IMG/VR virus record: IMGVR_UViG_3300044622_001081
Location: 1-20,718 of that record
Strand: one strand, 5' to 3'
Length of the DNA: 20,718 bases
Source of the DNA: a virus
The notes under the pieces are model-generated. The model worked only from the letters and a program-made list of their open reading frames with translations, was not told the DNA's origin and made no database searches. Positions 3,125 to 10,711 of this stretch are shown here, one piece after another. The translations under genes and the position numbers were made by a program. Each line of letters begins with the position of its first letter. The first letter of the stretch is position 1.

Positions 3125-4094
3125 GTTTATGAAAGTCAAAGAAATCTTTGATTGATCTTTCTCTTTTAATATTATCATCATATTCTGTATTTTTTAGAAT
3201 ATTACAGAACCAATTAAATCCAGCCAAATCTTTTTCTACATCTATATATATGTGTGCATTCCATAATTTATTTTCAAAAACTATCCATTGAAAAGATGCT
3301 TTTTTATGATCAACCATGTGTATGTGGTACTGATATCTGGGCATCCATACATCATATCCAGTAGTATAAATATTTATGCCAGCCTCCTCTTGATCCCCAG
3401 CAAAAAATATATTTTGAGATAATTTATATTTATCAAACCAATCTGCTGGAAAGAAAGCAAAACCTGCTGAAAATACACATGTTTTTTCTGGATAACCTTC
3501 TTCTGGTTCTGGAACATTAACATGATGTGTCATTCCTGGCATTCTAGTTCTTAGTAGTTCTGTGTAATTTGGATAAACTTGTTCTTCGCTTTTATATTGT
3601 CCCTTATCTACATAGAATTCATAAATTTTACTACTAATCTTTTCATTAAAAAAGTTATTATTATTAAAATATTTTTCAAGTGCAACATCATACTTTAAAT
3701 GACTTACTGGCACACTATTTCCAAAACTTCCAGAAATAATTATTTTTTTATTTTCTGCATTAGATACTCTGTCCTCATAATCTTTTATTATTTCTATATC
3801 CCAATCTGGCATAAATATAACATGAGAGTCTACTAAAAGCACAAAGTCTTCATCTGTTTTTAATTGACACAATACCGATCTTGGTTTTGCAACTCCAACC
3901 TTAGAACCTTTAGGGATAACGTATCTTGAAATTTTATTTGATATATGCGATGTATCTATGTTATGGTCTTCATGATAAGAAATTGCAAAAGAAATATTTT
4001 CTGGATGACGTGCCCTTTTTATAGCAGACTCTATAGTATTTATTTGAAAACGCTCATAGTATCCAGCAATAACTATTAATATTTTTTTATGCAT
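3102..4094 (-). CDS. GT60-like glycosyltransferase B
   Basis: This 330-aa paralogue of the 1141-2121 product has the same blocks: ILIVIAGYYERFQINTIESA, the DSH metal site (Asp89-Ser-His91) followed by PDW, FFAGDQEEAGINIYTTGYD, MPRYQYHIHMVDH and a final FNWF. The family is GT60/PF11397, whose studied members add GlcNAc to hydroxyproline of Skp1. The middle region (about 160-200) differs most between the two paralogues, suggesting different acceptors. The start overlaps the preceding metallopeptidase-like gene by eight bases, placing it in one transcript with the oxygenase-like gene. Sugar donor and acceptor cannot be read from sequence. Confidence 0.78.
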   Translation of the reverse strand: MHKKILIVIAGYYERFQINTIESAIKRARHPENISFAISYHEDHNIDTSHISNKISRYVIPKGSKVGVAKPRSVLCQLKTDEDFVLLVDSHVIFMPDWDIEIIKDYEDRVSNAENKKIIISGSFGNSVPVSHLKYDVALEKYFNNNNFFNEKISSKIYEFYVDKGQYKSEEQVYPNYTELLRTRMPGMTHHVNVPEPEEGYPEKTCVFSAGFAFFPADWFDKYKLSQNIFFAGDQEEAGINIYTTGYDVWMPRYQYHIHMVDHKKASFQWIVFENKLWNAHIYIDVEKDLAGFNWFCNILKNTEYDDNIKRERSIKDFFDFHKLDLSIYK

Positions 4095-4989
4095 GAATAG
4101 TTTTTGCCAATTCTACTAAATCTTTTCCCAGTTCACTATAAAATTTATTGGGATCTTTTCTCATGAAATATACAAAAAGATCATCATAATGCTCGCCACG
4201 GACAAATCTTTTATAAAATTCCATCATATCTTTATGGGTAAGTTTATACATCATTTCTTCGTAAGCCAGCAATCCAGTGTAGTATTCGTCTACTAGTGGT
4301 ACACCCTTGAATTTTTGAGGAGACAGTCTTAAAGAGTCTGACCACTCTTTCTCAGATAACTGTTTCATTTCTTTACGTCTTTCTCCTGCTGGTATAAAAG
4401 CATATTTAAAAAAGTTTTTCCTATGCTCTATATATTCATCAAATGTATTTGAAATAGACATTAAAGCAGCGAAATCTGCTTGACCTTCTACATACCAACC
4501 TGGAAAATCTGTTGCTGTTTTTTTATAATTATCAAACATAACAGTTTGTATAGAATGTGTAAAAAGGTGTGGCCCTGTTTTTAAATCTCCAGTGTGTTCA
4601 AATTCAACTTGACTACCTATCACTTGCCAATAAAGCAACACTTTTTTGCCATTTATCACTGAATAACCGCCAGATCCAAAAACACCACGACCATAATTTG
4701 TGTTCCATTTTTCTTGACTTGGAATGGCATCTGCAAAATTCAAAGATCTTAGTTGATCGCTAAGAAATTCATATCCATTTTCATCAGTGGAAACAATAAC
4801 AATCGGAGTATCATATTTGTAATCATTTGACCAAAACTTAATAATATTATTAAAATTTTCCAATGACTTATCTATAGTGTTTGTATTCGCATTTTCTGAT
4901 ACACGCAAATCTATTTGATAACTGCTCTCTAATGATTTAAAGAATAGTGCATTATTATATGCTATTTTAATTTTTTCTAAATCAAGCAT
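4087..4989 (-). CDS. Gluzincin (peptidase MA-like) fold protein with altered HExxH
   Basis: This 300-aa protein has the layout of a gluzincin metallopeptidase. A histidine pair (His141 and His145 in GPHLFTHSIQ) is followed by WYVEGQADF with Glu168, the usual third zinc ligand. In active members the motif is HExxH; here the catalytic Glu is Leu142 (codon CTT). The three metal ligands are therefore kept while the general base is lost. It may be an inactive peptidase retained as a binding protein, or I may have mis-assigned the fold. There is no signal peptide. It overlaps both neighbours (8 bases each side), between the oxygenase-like and glycosyltransferase genes. Confidence 0.6.
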   Translation of the reverse strand: MLDLEKIKIAYNNALFFKSLESSYQIDLRVSENANTNTIDKSLENFNNIIKFWSNDYKYDTPIVIVSTDENGYEFLSDQLRSLNFADAIPSQEKWNTNYGRGVFGSGGYSVINGKKVLLYWQVIGSQVEFEHTGDLKTGPHLFTHSIQTVMFDNYKKTATDFPGWYVEGQADFAALMSISNTFDEYIEHRKNFFKYAFIPAGERRKEMKQLSEKEWSDSLRLSPQKFKGVPLVDEYYTGLLAYEEMMYKLTHKDMMEFYKRFVRGEHYDDLFVYFMRKDPNKFYSELGKDLVELAKTIHA

Positions 4990-5895: not shown

Positions 5896-7332
5896 TTATC
5901 TAATAATTCTAAAATTATACTGTTTTTCCCATTGCTCTATATCTTTTTCATCATTTAATAAGGGCTGACCCTTAATATTTAAACTGGTATTTAATAATAT
6001 CGGAACGCCAGAAATTGCATACCAGTTAGATAATACAGAATATAATCCAGGATGCTGTTTCTGATTTACTGTCTGTACTCTAGACGTTCCATCTTTATGA
6101 ACTACAGATGGTATTTTATCTGGTTGCAAACATTTAACAGCATACTGCATGTATGGTGATGTAAATCTCATATCAAACCATTTATGGGCATACTCTTCCA
6201 TGACTACTGGGGCGAAAGGCCTAAACAATTCTCTTTTTTTAATAAGATTAACTTTGTCTTTTATGTCTGGATCCCTTGGATCTGCAAAAATAGATCTATT
6301 TCCTAATGCTCTTGGACCATATTCCGCTTTTCCAGTCGCTACTGCCACTATCTTGTCTCTAATTAAACCAGTAATGATATCTGTTACTGGATACTCCCCA
6401 CCTAAATCATATCCAAGATATGGGTTCTCCCAATTTATATGGCTTCCATAAGCCGCAGCAGCCGCACCAAGGGACGATCCTGCGTCTCCAGGATTAGGCA
6501 TAATCCAAACATTGTCAAACATTCTCCAAAGCATTGTATTGGCTGCACAGTTTAATGCACAACCACCCATAAAAACAAGATTGCGTTGTCCTGAAAGTTT
6601 TTGTGCCATTGACATAAAATTAACTAATCTATTTTCATATACCTTTTGTACTGCTGCAGCAATGTCAAACTTATCTTGTTCTGAAATTGGCATATCCCAG
6701 TCAAAAATTCCTTTATGAAAATTATATTTTTGTTTGTTTAAATCTGGAAAGTATTCATTTACCTTAAGAAAATATTTTGCCCAATCTCCATAGGCTGCCA
6801 TTCCCATAAATATATACTCTTCCTCATTTGGCTTGAGTCCTACTAATTGAGTAAAAGCAGAATAAAATAATCCAAAACTAAAAGGATAGTTCTTTTTATA
6901 AATTTGAGATATATTTGATCCATTACCTATCCAAATTGTTGATGTATTGTATTCTCCAATAGCATCTAAAACTACTATTACAGCATTATCAAAGTTACTT
7001 GTATAATACCCTGCTGCTGCATGAGAATAATGATGGCTAAATGATTCACGAGGAATCCATTGCAAATCTTTTCTATTTAAATAGTATGGTTTCCCACCGC
7101 CGAAACCACCACGAGTTAATATTCTAGATTTTTTTAACCACCTATTTTCATAATATGCAACTTTGTCTGGCTTTCCGTATTGAAGAGCATAATCTATTAA
7201 CTCGTCATTTGTGTACCAATCATTTTTTTCTTTACTAAATCTTTCAGAATGACCAGCAAATAGAATATTACCGTCCTCAATTAAGGATATAGAGGCATCA
7301 TGCGTTGTTTCATTAATTCCTAAAATTTTCAT
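5896..7332 (-). CDS. NodU/CmcH/TobZ-family O-carbamoyltransferase
   Basis: This 478-aa enzyme of the NodU family would transfer a carbamoyl group from carbamoyl phosphate via carbamoyl-AMP. N-terminal Kae1-like domain: MKILGINETTHDAS at the start, HHYSHAAAGYY with the conserved histidines, MGMAAYG, GGCALNCAANT and NPGDAGSSLGAA. C-terminal YrdC-like part: GKAEYGPRALGNRSI, RELFRPFAPVV and LLNTSLNIKGQP. The family is usually 540-600 aa; this one ends soon after the last motif, and the usual final strand block is replaced by a short charged tail. Family substrates include sugars, antibiotics and, in one reported phage-linked case, 5-hydroxymethylcytosine. The gene starts 18 bases after tRNA-Thr; TGGTACAAT just upstream may be a promoter for a leaderless or short-leader mRNA. 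Confidence 0.93.
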   Translation of the reverse strand: MKILGINETTHDASISLIEDGNILFAGHSERFSKEKNDWYTNDELIDYALQYGKPDKVAYYENRWLKKSRILTRGGFGGGKPYYLNRKDLQWIPRESFSHHYSHAAAGYYTSNFDNAVIVVLDAIGEYNTSTIWIGNGSNISQIYKKNYPFSFGLFYSAFTQLVGLKPNEEEYIFMGMAAYGDWAKYFLKVNEYFPDLNKQKYNFHKGIFDWDMPISEQDKFDIAAAVQKVYENRLVNFMSMAQKLSGQRNLVFMGGCALNCAANTMLWRMFDNVWIMPNPGDAGSSLGAAAAAYGSHINWENPYLGYDLGGEYPVTDIITGLIRDKIVAVATGKAEYGPRALGNRSIFADPRDPDIKDKVNLIKKRELFRPFAPVVMEEYAHKWFDMRFTSPYMQYAVKCLQPDKIPSVVHKDGTSRVQTVNQKQHPGLYSVLSNWYAISGVPILLNTSLNIKGQPLLNDEKDIEQWEKQYNFRIIR

Positions 7333-7350
7333 ATCAGTTAATTGTACCAG

Positions 7351-7422
7351 AGCCTCCTGTAGGATTTGAACCTACGACAACCCGCTTACAAGGCGGGTAC
7401 TCTACCACTGAGTTAAGGAGGC
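7351..7422 (-). tRNA. tRNA-Thr (anticodon TGT)
   Basis: A full 72-base cloverleaf: acceptor GCCTCCT/AGGAGGC, D stem ACTC/GAGT, anticodon stem CCCGC/GCGGG with loop CTTGTAA, and T stem GTAGG/CCTAC with loop TTCAAAT. CCA is not encoded. It reads ACA, a codon expected to be frequent in an AT-rich phage. Confidence 0.96.
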
Positions 7423-7423
7423 G

Positions 7424-7495
7424 TACCACTAACGGGAATCGAACCCGTCTTTCCGCCGTGAAAGGGCGATGTCCTAACCGATAGACGATAGTGGC
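7424..7495 (-). tRNA. tRNA-Glu (anticodon TTC)
   Basis: A 72-base cloverleaf: acceptor GCCACTA/TAGTGGT (one G-U at the end), D stem GTCT/GGAC, anticodon stem TCGCC/GGCGG with loop CTTTCAC, and T stem ACGGG/CCCGT with loop TTCGATT. CCA is not encoded. One base separates it from tRNA-Thr, so the two are probably processed from one transcript. It reads GAA. Confidence 0.96.
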
Positions 7496-7502
7496 AATAC
7501 TG

Positions 7503-7871
7503 CTAGTTACTTGTCCAAGGATCTGGTTCAGTAGTTGAAGATACTAAGCCCTTATTAAGAGTTTTTGTAGTAATTCCAACAGATTCTGCTACCACCTCGA
7601 ATGAAGTTCTCTTACTGCCATTATTATCCGTCCAATTTTCTTCACGCATAACTCCAACAACAATTACTTCTTGTCCCTTTTTAAGCATACCCTTTGATTG
7701 CTCTGCAAGAGTTTTCCATGCTTTAACTGTAAACCAAGAAGTGTCTCTGTCTTCCCATTCACCCTCAGCATTTTTGATTCTATCATTTGTGGCCATACGG
7801 AATCTAATTCCAGATCCAATTGGTTCTGGATCTTGTCCGATACGTCCTATTAGCGTAATTTTAGGATTCAA
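7503..7871 (-). CDS. ssb: Single-stranded DNA-binding protein (SSB, OB fold)
   Basis: This 122-aa SSB-like protein would coat ssDNA during replication and recombination. The N-terminal MNPKITLIGRIGQDPEP, the core FRMATNDRIKN and DTSWFTVKAWKTLAEQS, and VVGVMREENWTDNNGSKRTSFEVVAESVG match the SSB OB fold (about residues 3-103). The C-terminal tail is short and ends DPWTSN, without the DDDIPF-type tip that recruits partners in bacterial SSBs. The start is a TTG (7869-7871) after AGGAGG at a nine-base spacing; no ATG is available. The gene lies between two tRNA pairs and is probably co-transcribed with them. Confidence 0.9.
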   Translation of the reverse strand: MNPKITLIGRIGQDPEPIGSGIRFRMATNDRIKNAEGEWEDRDTSWFTVKAWKTLAEQSKGMLKKGQEVIVVGVMREENWTDNNGSKRTSFEVVAESVGITTKTLNKGLVSSTTEPDPWTSN

Positions 7872-7912
7872 TTTGAATTCCCTCCTAGATTGTAATTCAC
7901 CTATTTGGTGAG

Positions 7913-7986
7913 CGATCCGTACGGGACTTGAACCCGTGACCTCTACCGTGACAGGGTAGCGAACTAACCAACTATTCTAACGGACC
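7913..7986 (-). tRNA. tRNA-Asp (anticodon GTC)
   Basis: A 74-base cloverleaf: acceptor GGTCCGT/ACGGATC (one G-U), D stem GAAT/GTTC, anticodon stem CTACC/GGTAG with loop CTGTCAC, and T stem ACGGG/CCCGT with loop TTCAAGT. CCA is not encoded. It lies 41 bases before ssb. Confidence 0.96.
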
Positions 7987-7990
7987 TTGG

Positions 7991-8063
7991 CTGGTCTGGC
8001 AGGTCTCGATCCTGCGACATCTCGATTAACAGTCGAGTGTTCTACCAACTGAACTACAGACCA
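7991..8063 (-). tRNA. tRNA-Asn (anticodon GTT)
   Basis: A 73-base cloverleaf: acceptor TGGTCTG/CAGACCA, D stem GTTC/GAAC, anticodon stem CTCGA/TCGAG with loop CTGTTAA, and T stem GCAGG/CCTGC. The T loop is ATCGAGA, with A in place of the near-universal T54. Unlike the other three tRNAs here, CCA follows directly in the DNA (7988-7990), one base before tRNA-Asp begins. Confidence 0.94.
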
Positions 8064-8070
8064 AAACCTT

Positions 8071-8853
8071 TTATGGAATTAAATTAACAATTCCAGACAA
8101 TGATGTGCCATTTACATAATGTGATGCGACTGCTGCTGTAGCAGAAGATGTAGTTTGTGGCACTAAAAATGTACCTAAATTATAACTAAATACATTTACT
8201 GGTGTTGAGCCAATATAGTCAACTGTAGAGTTGTAGTTACTGTTATAAACAGTTCCACCAATACCAGCAGCAACAGACATTGAGTCTGAAATGCATGCAG
8301 GATATTCAATAGGATTATTAGGCTTGTTTCCAGTAGAAATAAATACTGGAATGTTCATTGATTTCAGTTGAGAAATTAATGACTTAATAGATGCATCCGT
8401 AGTTCTATTTGTTGTTGCACATTTTCCAGTATCGGCAGAACCTCGTGACAATGAAACTGCTGCAAACTTTGATGCATTATTCTTTACAAATAGTAATGCT
8501 TGATTTAGTTGATCAACAGTCATAGCATTTACATAACTTTTATTTGCATCTCTCTTATTGATTACAACAGTTCCAGATCTTACCAAAATAATATTGATAT
8601 TTGGAGACTGCTTTCTAGCAACAAGAGCCATTGAATTACCGTGGTTTACTTCGTGTGAAGGTTGAGCAGGAATTACCTTAATGTCATCAGCACAAACAGC
8701 ATTGCTAAGAGTTACACATGTAGTATTTCCTACAAGTGCTCTTGAATCAAAGTAACTGTCTATAATTGCAAGTGCTTTATTGTTTGCTTGTGCTTGTGTT
8801 GTTGGTAGTAATGCAGCAAAAATTGCTATAACCAATAGTACGATTTTTTTCAT
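8071..8853 (-). CDS. Secreted subtilisin-like (S8) serine protease
   Basis: This 260-aa protein has a signal peptide (MKKIVLLVIAIFAALLPTTQAQA; cleavage near residue 23). The mature part carries subtilase landmarks in order: Asp32 in LAIIDSYFD, His71 in VNHGNSMALVA, oxyanion Asn176 in FISTGNKP, and Ser236 in TTSSATAAVAS. The triad is complete, although the usual GTSMATP context is altered (Gly to Thr). Paired cysteines (Cys46/Cys54, Cys145/Cys187) may form disulfides. There is no propeptide domain of normal size, and the catalytic domain is shorter than in bacterial subtilisins (about 275 aa). It is probably exported to the host surface. Possible roles are processing surface proteins, exclusion, or release. 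Just downstream lies tRNA-Asn. Confidence 0.78.
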   Translation of the reverse strand: MKKIVLLVIAIFAALLPTTQAQANNKALAIIDSYFDSRALVGNTTCVTLSNAVCADDIKVIPAQPSHEVNHGNSMALVARKQSPNINIILVRSGTVVINKRDANKSYVNAMTVDQLNQALLFVKNNASKFAAVSLSRGSADTGKCATTNRTTDASIKSLISQLKSMNIPVFISTGNKPNNPIEYPACISDSMSVAAGIGGTVYNSNYNSTVDYIGSTPVNVFSYNLGTFLVPQTTSSATAAVASHYVNGTSLSGIVNLIP

Positions 8854-8872: not shown

Positions 8873-9076
8873 TTAGATGAATATTCTTATTACGTGTTCG
8901 CATGGGTCGCCTCCTGCTTCCCACTCTTCTACTTCTTCTTGACTCATATACTGATAGCCACCATCATGTGTGTGACAATAAGGGTCACTGATCCAGCCTC
9001 TTTCGATACCGTTCTGTAACCAGATACCAAACTCTTGCTCCTCTGGAGAAAGATCTTCCATACCCATATGATTCAT
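8873..9076 (-). CDS. Small acidic protein with a CxTHDGG segment; probably leaderless mRNA
   Basis: This 67-residue acidic protein contains GWISDPYCHTHDGGYQYMSQEEVEEWEAGGDPCEHVIRI (29-66, in pieces). Cys34, His35, His37, Cys59 and His61 could bind a metal. The pattern resembles small conserved proteins of actinophages and actinobacteria, but I know of no function. A consensus promoter ends seven bases before the first ATG (9074-9076), so the transcript would begin at or near the start codon. Alternative starts are Met4 and Met6, with GAGG upstream. It lies 15 bases after the Ntn-hydrolase gene. Confidence 0.78.
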   Translation of the reverse strand: MNHMGMEDLSPEEQEFGIWLQNGIERGWISDPYCHTHDGGYQYMSQEEVEEWEAGGDPCEHVIRIFI

Positions 9077-9082
9077 ACCTCT

Positions 9083-9111
9083 AGTATATCCTTAAATGCT
9101 TACGATGTCAA
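9083..9111 (-). promoter_or_regulatory. Consensus sigma70-like promoter (leaderless)
   Basis: TTGACA (9106-9111), a 17-base spacer and TATACT (9083-9088) occur on the minus strand. The -35 box lies within the last codons of the Ntn-hydrolase gene. The expected +1 is about base 9076, the A of the downstream ATG, which predicts leaderless translation. Confidence 0.8.
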
Positions 9112-9616
9112 TAGGCCCCATACACGATGGAGAAAATTTTATTGCTGCGCTTACTGCAGAATGCACACGGTTTCTTGCATTTTTTTGTTTATCTGTTGCA
9201 TATAAAACACCGTATGCGTACTCTGCTCCTGAACCCATAGCAAGATATGGCAGCGTATATTTAGATAAAGACATATCTCCAGAACTGTGTTCATATATTT
9301 CTCCACGAACAACAATAATTAAACCAAGGTCTCCATCTTTTGATGTGTCAACCCAGAACTCGTTGTAAAATTCACGAAGTTCTTTGATAAATTTTGTCTG
9401 CATAAATTTATCTGTATCTTTAATATTAGGGGCACTTGGCTTAAAGTTATAACGAATTCTTTCCCCATCCATAGACCCCGCATATCCAATTAAGTACGGA
9501 CCAATTTTCCATACCTTTGGTGCATCAAGCGCTAAAATAGTTCCATCATCTGAGGCTCCACGATCTCCAGCCATGTAGACTTTATCTTCGTGACGTACAA
9601 CAGCAATACAAGTCAT
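9092..9616 (-). CDS. Proteasome-beta/HslV-like Ntn-hydrolase
   Basis: This 174-aa protein of the proteasome beta fold begins MTCIAV, so removal of Met exposes Thr as the N-terminal nucleophile without any propeptide, as in HslV. In mature numbering Thr1, Asp17 (in AGDRGAS) and Lys33 (in APKVWKIG) match the proteasome catalytic triad. GYAGSMDGERI and YLAMGSGAEYAYGVL correspond to the conserved glycine turns, with Ser near 128. It would self-assemble into a ring and hydrolyse peptides; a partner ATPase is not seen here. It is driven by its own promoter (9643-9671) and follows the endolysin. The host proteasome may be a partner or competitor (inference). The family is confident; activity is untested. 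Confidence 0.85.
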   Translation of the reverse strand: MTCIAVVRHEDKVYMAGDRGASDDGTILALDAPKVWKIGPYLIGYAGSMDGERIRYNFKPSAPNIKDTDKFMQTKFIKELREFYNEFWVDTSKDGDLGLIIVVRGEIYEHSSGDMSLSKYTLPYLAMGSGAEYAYGVLYATDKQKNARNRVHSAVSAAIKFSPSCMGPIDIVSI

Positions 9617-9642: not shown

Positions 9643-9671
9643 AGTATAGCATTGAACTAAAAATGTGTCAA
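9643..9671 (-). promoter_or_regulatory. Strong sigma70-like promoter of the Ntn-hydrolase gene
   Basis: TTGACA (9666-9671), a 17-base spacer and TATACT (9643-9648) preceded by TGC, which adds an extended -10 element. The leader of about 20 bases contains AGGAAGG eight bases before the ATG at 9616. It begins one base beyond the endolysin stop codon. Confidence 0.85.
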
Positions 9672-10265
9672 TTACTTGATTGTTTGTCCACATTCTGAGC
9701 ATGTTTTAGACTTCTTAACAGTCTTATTAGGCTCAGATTTTGTAGTAGATTTTGCTGCTCCATTACCGCCAAACTTAGGACGACCAAAGCCGACGATTGA
9801 AATCATTACATTCTTTTTATTTTTCTTAAATGCACGGAGTTGCTTGCAAACTTCTCCACCATTTCTTTGGCTTCCTTTTTTATTTGAAGATGTGTTTCCT
9901 TCAATACACCAAACAGTTCCATCTCCATTGTCTTCAACAACAATACCAACATGTGAGATTCTATCGACACCGTCTGAGGGGAAATCAAAATAAACTATAT
10001 CTCCTGGTTCTGGATCTGCGATGTCTCCATCAATCCATGCGCCAGCCTTCTTAAATGCTGCTGCTCCGCCTGGAGTATAAACAGTGTTAGGAATCTTTAC
10101 GCCACTTTCCGACGCACACCAATTTACGAAACTTCCGCACCATGGTTGGAAGTTTGCTTTCATGAACTTGCCATATTTGGTTTCGTTATCTTTTGGACCT
10201 TCTATAGTGCCAAGTTCGCCTTCAGCAACTTCAATAAGTTTTTCTGGTGTTCCCATCTCTGCCAT
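9672..10265 (-). CDS. CHAP-domain peptidoglycan hydrolase, probable endolysin
   Basis: This 197-aa protein has a CHAP cysteine amidase/peptidase domain over about residues 5-155. Catalytic Cys43 is in WCGSFVNWCA, His105 in RISHVGIV, and Glu122/Asn124 in CIEGN; DPEPGDIVYFDF precedes the His, as in the family. It has no signal peptide, so a holin should release it. The C-terminal tail is Lys/Thr/Ser-rich and ends in CSECGQ, perhaps half of a zinc ribbon or a wall-binding tail. The start at 10265 is chosen for AAGGAG five bases upstream; a longer frame to 10283 would overlap the holin-like gene and lacks such a site. Confidence 0.88.
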   Translation of the reverse strand: MAEMGTPEKLIEVAEGELGTIEGPKDNETKYGKFMKANFQPWCGSFVNWCASESGVKIPNTVYTPGGAAAFKKAGAWIDGDIADPEPGDIVYFDFPSDGVDRISHVGIVVEDNGDGTVWCIEGNTSSNKKGSQRNGGEVCKQLRAFKKNKKNVMISIVGFGRPKFGGNGAAKSTTKSEPNKTVKKSKTCSECGQTIK

Positions 10266-10267
10266 GA

Positions 10268-10711
10268 TTACTCCTTGTCCCAATTAGTATCTATTGGTTG
10301 TTCTTCTGGCATAGCGCCATCTGGTTTCTTTGCAAGTCTTGCTCTTACTTCGTCAAGTTCTGCGTCAAGTTTATCTTCAGCCATTCTAATTTCAGATTCT
10401 AACTTTTTATCTGCTTGAGTATTTTTAGCATCTACCTCTTTATTTGCAACCTGTGCTGCCATAACATCTTTAGCACCTGATTGACCAATTAATAAACCAG
10501 CAAGTGTTCCTGTAATAAATGTTGCAACTGATCCCAAAACATTAAAGAACATCTTGTCATTTTCTGACTGTGCTCCGATAGGCTGTGTTACAAATATAAG
10601 AGCATATAAAATTCCTAATGCTGTAAAAAGAAGGATTGCTCCAAGTGTACAACCAAGAATAAACTTTAGTCGTGCATCAAGATCCTGTGGCGTTAATCGT
10701 TGCTTAGACAT
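10268..10711 (-). CDS. Two-helix membrane protein with cytoplasmic coiled coil, holin candidate
   Basis: This 147-aa protein has two transmembrane segments (about 17-42 and 58-79) and then a charged, heptad-like helix (84-128, rich in Lys, Glu, Asp and Ala) and an acidic tail. Position immediately upstream of the endolysin, with two bases between the stop and the endolysin ATG, makes a class II-like holin plausible. The long coiled coil is unusual for a holin, so it might instead be a structural or regulatory partner. The start overlaps the lipoprotein stop by one base. No family name is certain. Confidence 0.65.
   Translation of the reverse strand: MSKQRLTPQDLDARLKFILGCTLGAILLFTALGILYALIFVTQPIGAQSENDKMFFNVLGSVATFITGTLAGLLIGQSGAKDVMAAQVANKEVDAKNTQADKKLESEIRMAEDKLDAELDEVRARLAKKPDGAMPEEQPIDTNWDKE

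Follow-up and report, generated by a model that had tools for sequence, protein, structure and literature searches.

The window, a 20.7-kb virus record from a group of large viruses of ~117 kb, encodes a predicted proteasome-like threonine peptidase of the Ntn hydrolase superfamily. The protein is a member of the catalogued viral family phrog_1040, which forms a phage branch within the group-I proteasome homologues, and is not new in kind. With a probability of roughly 55%, it is a propeptide-free group-I proteasome-like subunit of a large actinophage, which forms a ring, works independently of an unfoldase or is fed by a host ATPase, and serves proteolysis in or on the infected cell rather than capsid maturation. 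The features are listed in Table 1.

Table 1. Positions of the peptidase gene, its active-site codons, its neighbours and promoter-like sites in the window.
Feature	Position	Strand	Evidence
Ntn (proteasome-like) threonine peptidase gene, 174 aa	9092..9616	(-)	ORF, translation, PHROG match, AlphaFold, dN/dS
Thr2 codon (mature Thr1, predicted nucleophile)	9611..9613	(-)	T in 182/182 unique homologues
Asp18 codon (mature Asp17)	9563..9565	(-)	D in 181/182, E in one
Lys34 codon (mature Lys33)	9515..9517	(-)	K in 182/182
Gly-Ser-Gly 128-130 codons (active-site loop)	9227..9235	(-)	G128 in 182/182, G130 in 179/182
CHAP endolysin gene, upstream neighbour	9672..10283	(-)	PF05257 2.4e-11; PHROG endolysin 1.3e-26
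g67, gene for a small 67-aa protein between both peptidase genes	8873..9076	(-)	Conserved downstream of the peptidase
Secreted subtilisin-like (S8) serine protease gene, divergent, 260 aa	8071..8853	(-)	Residues, profile, model
Sigma70-type promoter TTGACA-N17-TATACT, TG before -10	9671..9643	(-)	11/12 match
Second promoter-like site TTGACA-N17-TATACT, ahead of g67	9083..9111	(-)	Exact pattern match

The gene starts with ATG, and the protein opens with MTCIAVV (Met-Thr-Cys-Ile). When the residues are numbered from the Thr that follows Met removal, T1, D17 and K33 are all present, G46 occupies the oxyanion position, and there is a G127-S128-G129 motif. The proteasome spacing of Thr1, Asp17 and Lys33 in the original prediction is therefore confirmed in the ORF, and the residues are nearly invariant among 182 unique homologues of phage or viral-contig origin, on which the residue counts in Table 1 are based. 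The one homologue with Glu for the catalytic Asp17 (L341:3089-3619) keeps Thr1 and Lys33. All 275 homologue copies start with Met-Thr, indicating that the family has no propeptide, as had been proposed. The dN/dS ratio within the clade is ~0.046 (738 pairs). Judged from its sequence, the gene is real and under strong purifying selection. It is present as one copy in 14 of 15 records of relatives, the exception being a 47-kb fragment.

The window peptidase matches phrog_1040 ("peptidase HslV family") over its full length (residues 1-174, E = 1.9e-22) and scores 23.8 bits against the Pfam Proteasome model, whose cut-off is 22.4. A family profile built from 52 relatives found in the PDB first BPH (3e-14) and HslV (4e-13), then 20S beta subunits (3e-8). 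These matches indicate homology, not chance similarity. The AlphaFold model from the same alignment (pLDDT 93.6, pTM 0.89) shows the core strands and helices H1 to H4 of the proteasome sandwich. The top match of this model in Foldseek was BPH (TM 0.81), followed by HslV, while other phage Ntn proteins were the top matches in a viral library. The predicted sandwich fold, with Thr1, Asp17, Lys33 and the oxyanion Gly, places the protein in the proteasome-like Ntn hydrolase superfamily, and the full-length profile match places it in PHROG 1040.

The description of the protein as proteasome-beta-like holds as far as the fold is concerned, but profile, Foldseek and phylogeny all put it nearer to BPH and HslV, both of group I, than to 20S beta subunits. 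It is not a 20S beta subunit: there is no propeptide, the TIGR03690 score (15.5 bits) is far under the cut-off of 191.9, and the protein is separated from PrcB in the tree. HslV shares the fold and the catalytic residues. The score against the NCBIfam HslV model, however, is 22.5 bits against a cut-off of 157.75, and no match to PF07724 (AAA_2; HslU/ClpX) was found in nine relatives of 98-123 kb, so HslV was rejected as well. A prohead protease of the HK97/T4 type was rejected because its fold differs and PF04586 is found elsewhere in the relatives' genomes.

Fuchs, Alva and Lupas described 22 new proteasome homologues in 2021, and group I, which consists of HslV, BPH, AAH, CPH and PPH, includes types carried by phages (PMC8665760). 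PPH and AAH thus resemble the window peptidase as group-I homologues on phage genomes. PPH is ~140 aa long and lacks helix H2 (PMC8665760), whereas the window peptidase has 174 residues and contains H2 (residues 68-87); by this definition it is not a PPH. AAH is the better guess for the subfamily. A copy on a Rhizobium etli plasmid falls with the wider clade in the tree. The 2021 survey found no Actinobacteria-specific phage with the AAH type (PMC8665760).

The nearest solved structure is BPH, the betaproteobacterial proteasome homologue (PDB 5ovs/5ovt/5ovu). Like the window peptidase, it has Thr1 without a propeptide and no known unfoldase. The identity is only 16-24%, and the window peptidase is encoded by a phage. 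Its H2-S7 loop, WVDTSKDGDL, is short and mixed, in contrast to the long acidic pore loop of BPH. BPH forms tetradecameric double rings and binds epoxomicin; standard assays revealed no protease activity (PMC5777263). This inactivity would fit a specific amide-bond enzyme (ligase, transpeptidase or amidohydrolase), and the proteasome family does include the monomeric ligase connectase (PMC8665760). It is highly improbable that the window peptidase is such an enzyme, as its model is a compact core and lacks the insertion that connectase has between strands 3 and 4.

The maximum-likelihood tree, in which deep placement is uncertain due to long branches, separates the phage family and two proteobacterial plasmid copies from BPH, HslV, PrcB and the PPH-like Aeromonas phage paralogue (97/92). 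The paralogue is a second homologue in Aeromonas phage 2L372D (L089:4570-5454), in tandem with the first and with a C-terminal extension. The window clade joins proteobacterial phages and plasmids (97/90). The homologues from Planktophila phage LanE43-AprE7 (E7), Arthrobacter phage Pitbull, Microbacterium phage Pumpernickel and the metagenome-assembled DSL-LC01 form a separate actinophage clade with weak support (83/70). Named members of PHROG 1040, such as those of LanE43-AprE7, Salmonella phage Sw2, Arthrobacter phage Pitbull (gp77) and Actinomycetia phage DSL-LC01, share with the window peptidase full-length homology, the Met-Thr start, T1/D17/K33, the absence of a propeptide and a core of 170-220 aa. 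They differ in being only 24-35% identical to it and in having other gene neighbourhoods, and in the tree the window clade joins copies from proteobacterial phages and plasmids, apart from the clade of E7, Pitbull and DSL-LC01.

WhiB was detected above the cut-off in all 11 larger relatives (75-123 kb); among 14 control genomes it was detected only in Corynebacterium. The ferredoxin encoded in the window matches 2v2k, the Mycobacterium smegmatis ferredoxin, over its full length, and its cellular relatives are nearly all actinobacterial. WhiB and the ferredoxin together indicate that the phage infects Actinobacteria; the host is probably a freshwater group of this phylum. Among the other actinophages with a homologue, E7 has been isolated (OX376640), and the homologue of DSL-LC01 adjoins WhiB (PMC10611076). 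The paper on the Planktophila phage (PMC10202952) does not mention the peptidase. A phage-type homologue in actinobacterial genomes themselves was sought with the A1 profile in 396 genomes; the matches proved to be normal PrcB and one HslV, with none of the phage type. The P0001 search of GTDB contigs yielded no relative, and the phiTY18 query had no match in IMG/VR.

Several other genes are observed in the window. The phage-borne ferredoxin (2568-2876, (-)) is of the actinobacterial 7Fe type. A carbamoyltransferase gene (5896-7332, (-); PF02543/PF16861) is present, and a glycosyltransferase-like gene (1141-2121; PF11397) lies near the ferredoxin and carbamoyltransferase genes. Four tRNA genes (Thr, Glu, Asp, Asn) at 7350-8063 (-) are split by a gene for a single-strand-binding protein. 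A 300-aa protein (4087-4989, (-)) with a gluzincin-peptidase-like motif, THSIQT...GWYVEGQADF, has no Pfam match and is possibly a degenerate metallopeptidase. Ferredoxin, oxygenase-like and kinase-like genes of the phage group are also seen in a GTDB contig binned as Chitinophagaceae (L201; CANGYR010000020.1); this contig probably comes from a phage and was wrongly binned with a Bacteroidota MAG.

As originally predicted, the peptidase gene lies after the lysis genes: it directly follows the CHAP endolysin gene. Among 26 loci that were picked by TerL and extend far enough downstream, 25 have the gene, at a distance of 3.9 to 6.3 kb behind TerL. Where a locus has room, g67 is located downstream of the peptidase gene in 85/85 cases of clade A and 62/71 of clade B, and the gene for the 260-aa protein in 71/85 and 33/71, respectively. 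More than half of the clade-B loci thus have no detectable S8 gene. The same search found neither g67 nor S8 in E7-like phages (0/65).

The 260-aa protein has an N-terminus that resembles a signal peptide by eye. Pfam gave no subtilase match for the window's own protein, while PF00082 was matched by 17 of 46 relatives, with the best E-value of 3.9e-18. The S8 profile matched subtilisin in the PDB (8.5e-16), and subtilisins were the top Foldseek matches of the AlphaFold model (pLDDT 87.9). D32, H71 and G175-N176 are present in 79/79 unique homologues and S236 in 78/79; the catalytic residues remain conserved even where identity drops to ~25%. The Asp-His-Asn-Ser residues in subtilase order and the predicted fold assign the protein to peptidase family S8. 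The cassette of the peptidase, the small protein and the secreted subtilase appears undescribed.

The promoter of its own that had been attributed to the gene is present, and its position is kept in relatives. In most clade-A and clade-B loci, TTGACA-17/18-TATACT lies 54-61 bases ahead of the start codon. Of 66 unique regions upstream of the gene in the clade, 92% have a promoter near the same position; among mononucleotide-shuffled controls the share is 4%. Of the 98 loci that contain the strict promoter pattern, 58 form a hairpin below -18 kcal/mol across the stretch that runs from -35 to the ribosome-binding site, compared with 5 among the 329 other promoters of these loci (odds ratio 94; the sequences are related, and a p-value is not to be taken literally). 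At least three of those five are situated in the same cargo region (L136, L066, L075). Compensatory changes were found in 5 of 14 consensus pairs among 15 sequences chosen for low folding energy. The promoter within a hairpin or terminator element is largely specific to the peptidase locus. Examples are L132:9183-9247 and L112:15932-15996, and L472 has one ahead of its DUF885 gene (about 6920-7000).

The hairpin loop contains the -10 box, and in Ntn loci the 3' arm carries the ribosome-binding site and pairs with the -35/-10 spacer. This layout suggests that RNA reading through from the lysis genes would terminate or hide the ribosome-binding site. RNA that begins at the promoter itself would be without the 5' arm. 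T4 genes e, soc, 49 and I-TevI work by the same hairpin logic (PMC3014915). The window's own promoter region has no significant hairpin (-4.9 kcal/mol, z +1.0), and therefore only the promoter is claimed for the window.

The content of the locus is exchanged between phages. Two peptidase alleles, only 57-60% identical, are found in phages whose terminases are 84-97% identical, indicating the exchange of the peptidase gene between phages. It was also considered that the peptidase is more conserved than the terminase. This was seen in loci picked by the gene, but in terminase-picked loci the difference is milder and blurred by allele exchange, and the claim was dropped. In L136 the slot contains no Ntn gene; the promoter-hairpin is followed by a DUF885 metallopeptidase-like gene, g67 and the subtilase. 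The DUF885 protein matches PF05960 (1.8e-116) and has an HESVPGHH motif; from this motif and general knowledge, it is presumably a peptidase. A scan for DUF885 found six loci, five of which (L467/L471, L468, L469, L472) share this order without an Ntn gene. In all five the DUF885 gene is at about 7001-8644, and L467 and L471 look like one phage.

Genes for other functions are also observed between the hairpin promoter and the Ntn gene: by eye, a methyltransferase-like gene (L075:1489-2262) and an oxygenase-like gene (L066:9296-9988). The slot that follows the hairpin promoter resembles a site for the insertion of cargo genes. Since non-peptidase genes also enter it, the swap of one peptidase for another may be partly coincidental, and the exchange of DUF885 for Ntn peptidase is suggestive, not proof.

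Capsid processing had been suggested as one function. PF04586, the HK97-type prohead protease, is above the cut-off in 10 of 11 IMG/VR relatives, far from the peptidase gene, and because of this separate protease, capsid maturation is unlikely in the window's phage group. The PF03420 search is uninformative, with no match anywhere, controls included. The Ntn gene of the window's group further adjoins lysis and tRNA genes and has its own host-type promoter, and the homologues of T5-like, Vibrio and Aeromonas phages are surrounded by genes for nucleotide metabolism or PhoH. It is thus very unlikely that the peptidase is a maturation protease of capsids or virions, even though E7-like actinophages speak for such a role. 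In these phages the homologue comes directly after a portal-like gene in the morphogenesis operon, whose order by eye is TerL-like, portal-like, Ntn, and later scaffold-like and capsid-like ORFs, and PF04586 was not found in the 39-kb E7 record (L085/L479; OX376640). A maturation role is plausible in E7-like phages, and the family may be put to different uses in different phages.

In the literature found, no function is given for phage proteasome-like proteins. The two Pfam models searched, PF07724 and PF00004 (AAA), revealed no credible unfoldase in the relatives: PF00004 gave only matches below the cut-off, and the one inspected was a kinase-like nucleotide enzyme. This negative result would also be expected if the peptidase acted on or through the host degradation machinery, by joining or competing with the 20S proteasome or by being fed by Mpa/ARC or a Clp ATPase, and freshwater actinobacterial MAGs with a related ferredoxin encode normal PrcB. 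Such action is unlikely, given that the peptidase is apart from PrcB in the tree and that BPH and similar group-I relatives assemble by themselves (PMC5777263).

The host-type promoter of the gene itself and the adjoining secreted subtilase make a role in the infected cell most likely, and the protein is most likely an ATP-independent, self-assembling threonine peptidase acting there. Host-type RNA polymerase would transcribe the gene from its promoter, apart from the upstream lysis genes. Host methionine aminopeptidase would then remove Met1 and expose Thr1, and the subunits would assemble into a homo-oligomeric ring, probably a double one, like BPH or HslV. The particle would need no dedicated unfoldase; without ATP it may cut peptides, unfolded chains or particular proteins, or it may borrow a host ATPase. 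Beside a secreted subtilase, it may contribute to proteolysis in and on the infected cell, so as to take over the host, recycle peptides or remove host proteins.

A narrower function, counter-defence or host take-over by removal of specific host proteins early in infection, appears rather doubtful. The insulation of the host-type promoter from the lysis genes, the exchange of divergent alleles among phages with similar terminases, and the replacement by another peptidase (DUF885) are in line with it. The strong conservation (dN/dS ~0.05), however, is unlike many arms-race proteins.

Beyond the single enzyme, a regulated, modular protease cassette in large freshwater actinophages is tentatively proposed. 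The hairpin/terminator promoter would drive an exchangeable cytoplasmic peptidase (Ntn or DUF885), the small protein and a fast-evolving secreted subtilase, which might jointly digest or reprogram the host; the Ntn particle would work without an unfoldase and be portable across phages of different bacterial phyla.

The gene is an ordinary family member, in a phage group for which the literature found contains no earlier discussion of it, and what deserves follow-up is the cassette, together with the exchange of peptidases and the promoter embedded in a hairpin. The phage enzyme can now be placed in actinophages as two separate lineages, one of which occurs in a cultivable phage-host pair (Planktophila phage E7). 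Genome context separates capsid maturation, plausible in E7-like phages, from a role in the infected cell in the window's group, and the conserved protease cassette is directly testable.
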